Positions 7,253 to 14,247 of a stretch of 40,519 nucleotides of DNA are shown in pieces (the first letter of the stretch is position 1; every line of letters starts with the position of its first letter). The DNA is from Prochlorococcus sp. AG-432-D11 (GTDB lineage: Bacteria; Cyanobacteriota; Cyanobacteriia; PCC-6307; Cyanobiaceae). Made by a program: the position numbers and the translations under genes. Location of the stretch: positions 1 to 40,519 of the forward strand of contig QCOP01000008.1 of assembly GCA_003212885.1 (NCBI GenBank), read 5' to 3'. The notes beneath the pieces were generated by a model that saw only the letters and a program-made list of their open reading frames with translations, had not been told where the DNA came from and searched no databases.

Positions 7253-7396
7253 ATGAAAAAAGTATCTCAAAAAACGAAGGTTGAACCAGAAAAACTTCTT
7301 GCAGAACGCATCAATGGATGGGCTGCAATGGTTGGTTTTTGGGCAGCTATTGGTGCTTATTTGACGACGGGTCAAATTATTCCTGGCATTGTTTAG
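7253..7396 (+). CDS. hli: high light inducible protein (HLIP), 47 aa
   Basis: MKKVSQKTKVEPEKLLAERINGWAAMVGFWAAIGAYLTTGQIIPGIV; ERxNGxxAM helix and TGQIIPG tail. Confidence 0.9.
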   Translation: MKKVSQKTKVEPEKLLAERINGWAAMVGFWAAIGAYLTTGQIIPGIV

Positions 7397-7398
7397 TG

Positions 7399-7572
7399 AT
7401 GGGAATAGGTAAATTATTTTTAACATCTATTTCGTCTGGTGTTATCACTTTAGATGAGCTCAAATGGATAGCTAAGAATCAGTTATCGTTTTCTAGATGT
7501 GAGCAAGCCACAGCTTTAAGAATTGGTCATTTAATGGATCTTGGCCAGTTGAACCTAGGTTGTAGGCTTTAA
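7399..7572 (+). CDS. small hypothetical protein within the hli cluster, 57 aa
   Basis: MGIGKLFLTSISSGVITLDELKWIAKNQLSFSRCEQATALRIGHLMDLGQLNLGCRL; begins 3 nt after the hli stop codon begins to end (stop 7394-7396, ATG 7399). Confidence 0.65.
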   Translation: MGIGKLFLTSISSGVITLDELKWIAKNQLSFSRCEQATALRIGHLMDLGQLNLGCRL

Positions 7573-7620
7573 TCTATTTCTTCAATATAAAATCATTTAT
7601 TAACTATTCATTTAAATCTC

Positions 7621-7728
7621 ATGACACCTGAAGCAGAAAAATTTAATGGATGGGCTGCAATGATCGGTTTCGTTGCTGCCTTTGGTGCATATGCCACTAC
7701 AGGTCAAATCATTCCTGGGATCTTTTAA
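7621..7728 (+). CDS. hli: high light inducible protein, 35 aa
   Basis: MTPEAEKFNGWAAMIGFVAAFGAYATTGQIIPGIF. Confidence 0.9.
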   Translation: MTPEAEKFNGWAAMIGFVAAFGAYATTGQIIPGIF

Positions 7729-7731
7729 CTT

Positions 7732-7956
7732 ATGACAACTTCTACTCCCCATCTAATTTCTAAGGCAACTTTAGTTGTCACAGAATATGGCAAGCAAAAT
7801 ATGTTTGCTTACGAAGCTCCAATGGAATTAGATGAAAACTACACAAATTATCTTGAAGAAGCTGAAAAAACTAATGGAAGATGGGCAATGATAGGTTTTT
7901 TAGCATTGATACTTTCTTATGTATCTACTGGTCAAGTAATTCCTGGAGTTTACTAA
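7732..7956 (+). CDS. hli: high light inducible protein, 74 aa
   Basis: EEAEKTNGRWAMIGFLALILSYVSTGQVIPGVY. Confidence 0.9.
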   Translation: MTTSTPHLISKATLVVTEYGKQNMFAYEAPMELDENYTNYLEEAEKTNGRWAMIGFLALILSYVSTGQVIPGVY

Positions 7957-8075
7957 TGAACAATAACTTTTGGGAAATAGCTGAAAGAACTAATGGCCGA
8001 CTTGCAATGATTGGTTTATTCTCCCTAATCATTAATTATGGTTTCTTTGGTTGGATTATACCTGGACTCTACTAA
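7956..8075 (+). CDS. hli: high light inducible protein, 39 aa
   Basis: MNNNFWEIAERTNGRLAMIGLFSLIINYGFFGWIIPGLY; start overlaps the preceding stop (TAATG). Confidence 0.9.
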   Translation: MNNNFWEIAERTNGRLAMIGLFSLIINYGFFGWIIPGLY

Positions 8076-10381: not shown

Positions 10382-11104
10382 TTATTGAATGCAATTATGA
10401 GCTAGTTGCTTCTGCACTAATTCTAAATTTCTTCCTTGAGGTAATATTTTAACAAGAGTCTCTAAAGTAGTTTTGCTATTTTGAGATCTAATACAGCCTA
10501 ATGCTGATATTGCTTTCTCTGAAGTAATAGAAGAACCTGATATTACTAAGTCTTTTAGTTTACTCACTATTTCTTCCCCATCTCTTCTTTGAAGTATTGT
10601 TATAACTTTGATTAAAATTTCATCACGAAAATCATCAAAAATTTCGTTCATTGCGTTTAACAGCTCATTATTGGTCATTAGATGAGCTTTGAAACTTAAT
10701 AATTCTAGTCCTGCAAGCTTTGCTCTTTTGCTAGGCTCTTTAATAATTTTTTCTATCAATTTACTTGGAATAGAAGCCCCCCAGCATGCTAATGATTCAT
10801 ATATTTCAATGTTATAATCATTACTTTCTTCTTCCAAAAGTAGATCTAAGAGAAACTCTCTAGATCCATCTTGATGGGAAATCCCTGCTGCTTTTATAAG
10901 AGGTGATTGAACTCCATATTTCTTCAATAAGATTCTGATTACTTCCCAGCCTTCCTTCTCCATTGTGCCTAGGCGTTCTGCAATTAAAGCCTTTAGACCA
11001 TCGGAAAGATCATTTGAGTAAATTTCTTTTAAAGAATATGGATCAATAGAGTTTTTACGATTGCTAAGAAGCTTTATTATTTCATCTTCATTAACTTGGC
11101 CCAT
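10382..11104 (-). CDS. HEAT-repeat-like protein next to the nitrite genes
   Basis: 240 aa, alpha-helical repeat pattern; upstream of the cnaT-like gene on the same strand. Confidence 0.5.
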   Translation of the reverse strand: MGQVNEDEIIKLLSNRKNSIDPYSLKEIYSNDLSDGLKALIAERLGTMEKEGWEVIRILLKKYGVQSPLIKAAGISHQDGSREFLLDLLLEEESNDYNIEIYESLACWGASIPSKLIEKIIKEPSKRAKLAGLELLSFKAHLMTNNELLNAMNEIFDDFRDEILIKVITILQRRDGEEIVSKLKDLVISGSSITSEKAISALGCIRSQNSKTTLETLVKILPQGRNLELVQKQLAHNCIQ

Positions 11105-11333: not shown

Positions 11334-12251
11334 CTATCTTGCTCCTAGCTCTGCAGCAAGTTCCCTTTCTAATTTTTCATCATGCACTGTAGGTAAGACA
11401 TTATTCATTTTTGTTCGATGTGTGCTATAGAACAGCATTCCTATAAATACCATTCCTCCAAGAATATTGCCTAGAGTTACTGGAAGGAAATTCCAGAAAA
11501 TTACTTTTATAAAAGGGACTCCTGATCCTAGGAATGGACCTGCTGTATGAAGGAACATATTGACTACAATATGTTCCATACCCATTGTTTGGAATGCTGT
11601 TATAGGTAGCCAACATGCAAGGATTTTTCCTGGAACACTTTTACTAACTAGAGCCATCGTCACTCCTAGGCATACAAGCCAGTTCGCGATAACTCCTCTT
11701 AAGAATGCTAAAAAGAAACCTGTACTTCCTAAGGATTCATATTTGACTAATACATTTGCTTTGTTTAATGCAATTATCTTTGCTGCTACTGCGGCCCAAC
11801 CTTTACCACCGTCTGCCACTGAAAGTGGTTCTAAAGTTCCTGCACTTGTAAGACTTATTGATAACAAATAAGCAACTAAAACGGTTCCTAGAAAATTTCC
11901 AATCCATACCCACATCCAATTTCTAAAAGTAGCTTTCCAAGAACTTTTGCCTGCCCAGGTTGCCATTGGAAGTAAAGCAAAGTTCCCTGTTACAAGTTCC
12001 ATTCCAAACAGAACTATGCTTGCGAACCCGAATGGGAATAATACTGATCCTAAAAAAGGCATTTTGGATTGAATTCCTACAGTAATTGCAAGACATGTAG
12101 CCAATCCCAGAATTGCTCCGGAATAAAAACCGCGTAGCAACAAATTTTTGACACTAACTGTTGATTTCTTACCACCTGCGGTAATCATTCCATCTACTAA
12201 TTCATTAGGTAGGACATAGTCCATTTGTGATGCTGTGGGATCCATTGGCAT
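11334..12251 (-). CDS. focA: formate/nitrite transporter family (FNT) protein
   Basis: 305 aa; FGMELVTGNFALLPMATWAGK, WVGNFLGT-like and NWLVCLGV segments typical of FNT channels; adjacent to nirA. Confidence 0.9.
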   Translation of the reverse strand: MPMDPTASQMDYVLPNELVDGMITAGGKKSTVSVKNLLLRGFYSGAILGLATCLAITVGIQSKMPFLGSVLFPFGFASIVLFGMELVTGNFALLPMATWAGKSSWKATFRNWMWVWIGNFLGTVLVAYLLSISLTSAGTLEPLSVADGGKGWAAVAAKIIALNKANVLVKYESLGSTGFFLAFLRGVIANWLVCLGVTMALVSKSVPGKILACWLPITAFQTMGMEHIVVNMFLHTAGPFLGSGVPFIKVIFWNFLPVTLGNILGGMVFIGMLFYSTHRTKMNNVLPTVHDEKLERELAAELGAR

Positions 12252-12287: not shown

Positions 12288-12431
12288 TTAACCGCTAAAT
12301 CGGTTCATGAATCGTGAAAAGATGTCGTTTCCTCCTTCCTCACGATTAATTTCTGGCTTGTCAGTTCCTGATTCGTTAAGCCAATTAACGAATCGGGAAA
12401 AGATATCACTACGAATGGGTTTAGTAGACAT
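12288..12431 (-). CDS. 47-aa small protein with internal duplication, between focA and nirA
   Basis: MSTKPIRSDIFSRFVNWLNESGTDKPEINREEGGNDIFSRFMNRFSG; 32 nt after the nirA stop. Confidence 0.7.
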   Translation of the reverse strand: MSTKPIRSDIFSRFVNWLNESGTDKPEINREEGGNDIFSRFMNRFSG

Positions 12432-12463: not shown

Positions 12464-14083
12464 TTAAGTCTTATAACTGCCTTTAAGAAAAATGCTTAAT
12501 TTATTAATCAACTTGCCAATAATCTCTCTTTTCCTTACTTGATGATGCTTAGATTTGGCTGAGAAATTTTCTATAAGTAATGTTTTTAGTAATGGTTTTA
12601 ATTCTTCAGTAGGTATACCTTTATGTAATAAATTTCCAAGCTTCTTATCAGGTCCTTGAGCACCACCGATGCTAATATCAAATGCTTCAACCATTTTCCC
12701 GTTGGCATCTTTAGCTTTGGTTCCTGTTAACCCAATTGCCCCCATATAGGCTTGCCCACAGCTATTGGGACATCCTGTCCAATGAATTTTTATCTCATTA
12801 GATAATTCGATTTCTGCGTCAAGTTCTTTAGCTATTTTTTGAGCTTGATCTTTGGTATTGGTTAAGGCAAAACTGCAATATGTATTACCTGTACATGCAA
12901 CAGTTCCACTGGCTATTGGAGTTGGGGATAAAGGGAATTTTGTTAGTAATGAATCAGCCTTAAACTCTTCAAGCTTCTCATCTTTTATACCTGTAATAAT
13001 TAAATTTTGATCTTCAGTTAATCTAATTTCGCAATTACCATAGGTTGAACTTATCTTTGCGATATCTAATAGATCCTCTCCCGTAAGTCTTCCAACAGGT
13101 ATATGTAATCCCGCAAAGTTCAAGCCCATTTGTTTTTGTGGGTGAACGCCAAAGAATGATCTTGGTTGTATATCAAAGTGTGATCCAGGATCATGCAAAA
13201 GCTCCCCATATTTCTCCTCAACCATTCCTCTGAATTTTTCAATACCTATTTGATTTAGAAAGAACCTGAATCTACCTTTCGGCCTTTTGTCTCTTTCGCC
13301 ATTATCTCTCCATAAAGAGATGATAATCGAAGTCATTCTGCAAATTTCATTTTCATTTATCCATGCATTCAGAGGGACTGCATATTCATTCATCTGTGAA
13401 GAAAGAATACCTCCTATCCAGACTCCAAAACCTAGGATACCTTCCTTTTCTACCGGGTGAAAAATAATATCATTGTGCAAAAGAAAATTGTCTTTTGAGC
13501 CTGCAACAGCAGTATTCCATTTCCTTGGTAAATTAGAAAATTCTTGATTACCATTATTCTTATTAGTTAAGAAATCATTTAGTATAGCTGTATATTTTCT
13601 GGTATCAATAATTTCCTTTGGATCTATCCCTGCTAAGGGATTACCTGTTACATTGCGTGGATTATCGAATCCCGATTGTGTTGTATATAAACCACAACTA
13701 TGAAGCCTTTCAAGTATATCAGGAAAATCACTAATAAGAATTCCTCGAAGTTGAATATTTTGTCTTGTTGTTATATCACAGCTGCCATTCTCTCCATATC
13801 TATTGACAATAGAAGCAATTATTTCTATTTGCTTTGTATTTAGTATCCCATTGGGTACTCTTAATCTCAGCATAAATTTTCCTGGTGTTTTTGGCCTCCA
13901 GAACAATCCATACCATTTTAGTCTTAATTCACGATCAGTTTTATCTATATTCTCCCAGCCAATCTCTGCAAATTTGTTTATTTCTTCTCCAACTTCTAAA
14001 CCATCTTTTGATGCTTTATTCTGTTCTATCTTATTTAATTTTTTGCCATTTAGATATGGTCTACTATAACTAGTAGAAGTCAT
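12464..14083 (-). CDS. nirA: ferredoxin-nitrite reductase
   Basis: ACTGNTYCSFALTNTK and HWTGCPNSCGQAYMGAIGL siroheme/[4Fe-4S] motifs. Confidence 0.93.
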   Translation of the reverse strand: MTSTSYSRPYLNGKKLNKIEQNKASKDGLEVGEEINKFAEIGWENIDKTDRELRLKWYGLFWRPKTPGKFMLRLRVPNGILNTKQIEIIASIVNRYGENGSCDITTRQNIQLRGILISDFPDILERLHSCGLYTTQSGFDNPRNVTGNPLAGIDPKEIIDTRKYTAILNDFLTNKNNGNQEFSNLPRKWNTAVAGSKDNFLLHNDIIFHPVEKEGILGFGVWIGGILSSQMNEYAVPLNAWINENEICRMTSIIISLWRDNGERDKRPKGRFRFFLNQIGIEKFRGMVEEKYGELLHDPGSHFDIQPRSFFGVHPQKQMGLNFAGLHIPVGRLTGEDLLDIAKISSTYGNCEIRLTEDQNLIITGIKDEKLEEFKADSLLTKFPLSPTPIASGTVACTGNTYCSFALTNTKDQAQKIAKELDAEIELSNEIKIHWTGCPNSCGQAYMGAIGLTGTKAKDANGKMVEAFDISIGGAQGPDKKLGNLLHKGIPTEELKPLLKTLLIENFSAKSKHHQVRKREIIGKLINKLSIFLKGSYKT

Positions 14084-14233: not shown

Positions 14234-14247
14234 GTATCAGATTTTAC
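14234..14247. promoter_or_regulatory. Putative NtcA binding site in the nirA / CbiX-cobA divergent promoter region
   Basis: GTATCAGATTTTAC matches GTAN8TAC exactly. Confidence 0.7.

Follow-up and report, generated by a model that had tools for sequence, protein, structure and literature searches.

A conserved two-motif microprotein gene next to the nitrite channel gene focA in Prochlorococcus and other Cyanobiaceae: a candidate adaptor between channel and nitrite reductase

The nirA-sp47-focA locus

The window, i.e. the whole stretch of DNA that was analysed, is 40,519 nucleotides long and derives from Prochlorococcus sp. AG-432-D11 (contig QCOP01000008.1). Its minus strand carries nirA and focA (nitM), and a short open reading frame, for which the name sp47 was coined here, lies between them. 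The features of the locus are as follows:

14234..14247, minus strand: NtcA-type box GTAN8TAC, 164 nt upstream of nirA (consensus match only)
12464..14083, minus strand: nirA, ferredoxin-nitrite reductase of 539 aa including a C-terminal extension (passes the NCBIfam cut-off)
12494..12526, minus strand: NirA C-terminal extension with the degenerate single motif EIIGKLINKLS (by eye; the strict pattern is unmatched)
12288..12431, minus strand: sp47, gene of a 47-aa two-helix, bivalent-motif microprotein (ATG to TAA)
12375..12407, minus strand: N-terminal motif copy of sp47, DIFSRFVNWLN (Trp invariant in 70/70 distinct core sequences)
12294..12326, minus strand: C-terminal motif copy of sp47, DIFSRFMNRFS (D, S, N and S invariant in 70/70 distinct core sequences)
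11334..12251, minus strand: focA/nitM, FNT-family nitrite channel (passes Pfam Form_Nir_trans)
11337..11402, minus strand: charged C-terminal tail of NitM, NVLPTVHDEKLERELAAELGAR, candidate docking site (the segment inhibits transport in two other strains, PMC4390861)

The 47-aa ORF had been noticed in the first-pass annotation, and its sequence, running from ATG to TAA, was recovered exactly as given there. It is separated by 32 nt from the nirA stop codon and by 36 nt from the focA ATG; the neighbours had been named correctly, as both pass their family models. The two motif copies can also be seen at the DNA level, as ATCTTTTCCCGATTCGTTAAT and ATCTTTTCACGATTCATGAAC on the coding strand. In the window genome the hints of a transcription unit are the gene spacing and the NtcA-type box. 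Elsewhere in the window, a HEAT-repeat-like protein is encoded at 10382-11104 (minus strand), a gene that comes after focA in nearly all related loci, and four short ORFs in a row at 7253-8075 (plus strand) appear by eye to be high-light-inducible (Hli)-like (NGWAAMxGF...GQIIPG).

Both sp47 helices share an 11-residue consensus, D-phi-F-S-R-phi-phi-N-x-phi-S. The two copies are identical at 7 of 11 positions, which was matched by approximately 1 in 10,000 same-residue shuffles, and orthologs keep the repeat as two distinct motifs. The motif helices are strongly amphipathic, with hydrophobic moments of 0.67-0.76; in the window sp47 the values are 0.69 (N-terminal motif) and 0.75 (C-terminal motif), and both rank in the top 0.4% of NirA 11-mers. 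AlphaFold placed helices at residues 6-21 and 36-46 with modest confidence (mean pLDDT 69), in agreement with the two helices published for the WH7803 protein on the basis of PSIPRED (PMC9430850). The protein has no net charge (7 basic and 7 acidic residues), and free copies are approximately 40-56 aa long. Profile searches of Pfam, NCBIfam and PDB with sp47 revealed no family relative, only chance-level matches, as did a Pfam search with 53 sp47 members. The initial description of a bivalent amphipathic-helix microprotein linked to the NirA/FocA module is borne out.

The same description had called the ORF unannotated, which is only partly right because the ortholog of Synechococcus WH7803, RSS12335 (SynWH7803_RSS12335), was described in 2022 as a 44-aa small ORF between nirA and nitM with two predicted helices and function unknown (PMC9430850). 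RSS12335 and sp47 agree in position, have similar lengths and two helices each, and RSS12335 occupies the same place as the WH7803 ortholog (L178) found in this work. The window sp47 has two features of the RSS12335 family, the location directly upstream of focA on the same strand and the two motif copies. The ORF itself is thus already known, as RSS12335 of WH7803. This gene shares a transcript with nirA and nitM, and its expression rises strongly when ammonium is absent (PMC9430850); for MIT9313, an uncharacterised gene located between nirA and focA has been noted to be co-expressed (PMC8115048). The paper on RSS12335 deals with expression only and proposes descent from nitrite reductase (PMC9430850), whereas the present data suggest the reverse. 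New here are the linkage that follows focA, the NirA motif fusions, the phage copy and the decayed sp47 accompanying tail-less NitM. In the literature covered, which mostly excluded subscription journals, no paper was found on the family as such, on fusion of the motif to NirA, on a connection with the NitM tail or on a phage-borne copy.

NirP1 resembles sp47 in being a small protein of cyanobacterial nitrite assimilation (PMC10907346). However, NirP1 is 76-86 aa long and has an invariant single Cys and three Trp in its last ~50 aa (PMC10907346), whereas sp47 (~40-56 aa) has one invariant Trp and no conserved Cys among the 70 distinct core sequences. Identity with NirP1, for which the first-pass annotation had seen no clear match, was rejected on the basis of this Cys/Trp pattern and length; NirP1 is reportedly absent from Prochlorococcus and most marine Synechococcus (PMC10907346). 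PirN is likewise small and regulates cyanobacterial nitrate assimilation, but it contains a DUF1830 domain and does not occur in Prochlorococcus (PMC13205821), whereas sp47 is without any Pfam domain; identity with PirN was discarded for want of DUF1830.

Distribution of sp47 and linkage to focA

Orthologs of sp47 were found by profile search in 135 of 400 Cyanobiaceae genomes, and in 145 of 400 at the looser limit of a single-sequence search. The named matches include Prochlorococcus MIT 0701, Synechococcus WH7803, RCC307 and SynAce01. In a sample of the phylum (292 genomes, members of the family included) only two weak partial matches, inside long frames, were detected outside the family. 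The median pairwise dN/dS was 0.24 for the 70 distinct core sequences and 0.31 over 27 independent pairs, codon variation was highest at third positions, and residues W17, D36, S39, N43 and S46 were invariant in the 70 distinct core sequences. The dN/dS comparison, suggested in the first-pass annotation, thus clearly revealed purifying selection. According to the same annotation, its proposal would fall if the nirA-focA interval of related genomes held no ortholog in which reading frame and motif duplication are conserved; both are kept there across approximately 40 genera. sp47 is a real, conserved gene, and a chance ORF or a leader peptide was rejected on the basis of this conservation.

The gene focA was present in 133 of the 135 genomes with sp47 and absent from 246 of the 400 overall (Fisher p ~2e-80 for the co-occurrence, uncorrected for relatedness). 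The two exceptions are G121, which has only a divergent sp47 copy at a different locus, and G399, which has a weak match within a long frame. Wherever loci were read, sp47 was directly upstream of focA on the same strand. This was also true for five loci (L047, L048, L050, L061 and L062) where a divergent nirA (~44% identity) is located kilobases away. Judged by gene order, the linkage of sp47 tracks focA, not nirA. This modifies the original placement in a nirA-focA unit, and the motif was also found on NirA itself.

A few Prochlorococcus-group genomes have sp47 paralogs distant from focA (L070:7696-7797, L089:7697-7804, L090:3713-3829 and L109). The L070 paralog is close to genes that look by eye IsiA/Pcb-like and flavodoxin-like, and the one in L109 is interrupted by stops.

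An intact 48-aa sp47 was found 1.6 kb from psbA on two viral contigs of IMG/VR (L190, at L190:3995-4138, and L191; 57.5 and 81 kb), whose gene content is identical across the stretch read. The 57.5-kb contig further encodes a phage DNA polymerase, a primase, a tail-fibre-like protein and a 2OG-Fe(II) oxygenase. This phage sp47 is a gene that had gone unnoticed. No nirA was found on L190/L191 in a search that had no positive control, a nirA scan across viral contigs found nothing, and the INPHARED phage collection gave no sp47 match. A focA scan of viral contigs yielded one phage-like fragment, L234, with focA and nirA and without sp47; the region L234:3320-5878 contains focA, a 62-aa ORF that is AbrB-like by eye, and nirA, and the phage FocA retains the inhibitory tail. 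A C-terminal match in a phage-like protein of L235 was set aside as probably due to chance.

The motif on NirA and the tail of NitM

The tail of the window NirA, EIIGKLINKLS, looks by eye like a worn copy of the motif, and the NirA extensions of relatives carry intact copies. In one Prochlorococcus clade (g56) the full sp47 body is fused to the C-terminus of NirA, and one or two free copies come after it in repeats of 203 bp; within a genome, NirA tail and free copies are nearly identical. Other Prochlorococcus NirA proteins end in a single N-type motif, e.g. DPFSNFMNWFSNLG, and those of Synechococcus-side lineages in a single C-type motif, e.g. GGTDFFSRFMNRISN. The NirA tree requires at least three acquisitions of the motif (Prochlorococcus stem, UW140-like Synechococcus and G048). 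In one genome, G070, sp47 coexists with a motif tail on NirA, and in one focA-positive Prochlorococcus (L133) NirA is without the tail. At L038:7685-8210 and related g56 loci the 203-bp repeats are arranged in tandem between nirA and focA, the first copy being joined to NirA, and the first residues of the free copies (MTQSTSQMSYVLPKD) are similar to the N-terminus of FocA.

Of 80 focA-less genomes sampled, 50 have nirA, and 26 distinct NirA C-termini were read from these. The motif was found in none of the 26, close Prochlorococcus L202 and L206 included (Fisher p 0.001, uncorrected for relatedness and with most of these NirA proteins divergent). Because the tail is missing from the sampled focA-less NirA and from most marine Synechococcus NirA, the suggested descent of sp47 from NirA (PMC9430850) is disfavoured, and the comparison suggests the opposite direction, i.e. 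that the similarity to NirA represents a fused sp47 motif. AlphaFold left the fused tail undocked on NirA (pLDDT below 40), so intramolecular docking of the tail is unsupported by the model.

Full-length NitM of MIT9313 and CC9311 was inactive in S. elongatus NA4 and active when the last 21 residues were removed; CC9605 NitM, which is naturally tail-less, was active (PMC4390861). Maeda et al. 2015 proposed an unknown activator that targets the tail (PMC4390861), and sp47 is a concrete candidate partner to account for the inactivity of NitM in a foreign host, a puzzle since 2015. The tail, NVLPTxHDEKLERELAAELGAR, hardly varies among genomes that have a free sp47, and it is altered in the NirA-fusion lineages g56 and G048. 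In G215 and G278 the tail is missing and the nirA-nitM spacer contains a decayed sp47 remnant; the two losses fall within one genus and therefore count as one event. Genus g9 and seven other genomes (G023, G053, G075, G309, G306, G328 and G342) have focA with an intact or nearly intact tail and no intact sp47, so sp47 is not an obligatory activator everywhere. A strict one-to-one model was dropped because the link between adaptor and tail is imperfect among focA-positive genomes.

Possible roles of sp47

Uptake and release of nitrite by Prochlorococcus and Synechococcus matter for the primary nitrite maximum of the ocean and for cross-feeding. Our preferred reading, to which we assign a probability of roughly 45%, is that sp47, as part of the nitrite-assimilation module of alpha-cyanobacteria, may act as a bivalent adaptor that docks on NitM and ties the opening of the channel to NirA. 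The sp47 motif would dock on NitM from the cytoplasm, most likely at or near the charged autoinhibitory C-tail, and docking would open the channel, while the NirA-borne copy or the second sp47 helix would hold NirA next to it. Entry of nitrite would thereby be restricted to times when both reductase and adaptor are produced, and toxic accumulation would be avoided. The first-pass annotation had not proposed that sp47 docks on, or activates, a self-inhibited NitM channel.

The adaptor reading was adopted because sp47 co-occurs with focA (133/135) and stays adjacent to it where nirA has moved, because the motif was fused to NirA on three or more occasions and is missing from 26/26 focA-less NirA, and because the tail-less NitM of G215 and G278 accompanies decayed sp47. 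It also takes into account that NitM of MIT9313 and CC9311 is inhibited by its own tail, with an activator predicted (PMC4390861), that dN/dS is 0.24-0.31, that in WH7803 the ortholog is transcribed together with its neighbours nirA and nitM and is strongly induced when ammonium is lacking (PMC9430850), and that a psbA-carrying cyanophage encodes an intact sp47. The gating of E. coli FocA by PflB is a precedent (PMC5572259): there, too, an FNT channel is controlled by the cytosolic enzyme of its substrate, as would be the case for NirA and sp47 acting on NitM. PflB differs in binding the N-terminal helix of FocA directly, without an adaptor microprotein (PMC5572259). The same motif occurs in two forms, duplicated in a free microprotein and attached to the end of an enzyme. 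A more specific and rather doubtful version of the adaptor reading is that sp47 might itself be the predicted activator of alpha-cyanobacterial NitM, binding the C-tail by a transferable 11-residue motif that was also grafted onto NirA several times; an FNT channel would thus be opened by its own downstream enzyme, and the phage copy would open host nitrite uptake during infection.

Direct regulation of NirA, with sp47 as an unrelated counterpart of NirP1 whose motif would attach to NirA, or to its ferredoxin site, in trans and, as a fused tail, would act in cis, appears unlikely. The repeated fusion of the motif to NirA, the near identity of NirA tail and free copies within g56 genomes and the co-transcription with nirA in WH7803 (PMC9430850) are what one would expect of such a regulator, and a role confined to NirA would also be compatible with operon membership and control by NtcA. 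However, sp47 linkage tracks focA, the sampled focA-less NirA proteins are motif-free, many nirA genomes without focA are also without sp47, and AlphaFold did not dock the tail on NirA.

We consider it quite improbable that sp47 and the NirA tails are membrane-surface amphipathic helices that need no docking site on a protein and concentrate NirA close to NitM or to thylakoid ferredoxin. Hydrophobic moments of 0.67-0.76, and the rank of the window motifs among NirA 11-mers, would suit such helices, but the invariant polar residues D, S, N and S exceed what a membrane helix needs, the protein carries no net charge, and the specific linkage to focA would be left unexplained. Finally, a translational-coupling or leader element for focA, with the peptide irrelevant, would agree with an ORF 36 nt before focA in an apparent single transcription unit, but this possibility is extremely slight since it is already contradicted by the conservation at the protein level (dN/dS 0.24-0.31), and the NirA fusions, the copies distant from focA and the phage copy also speak against it.
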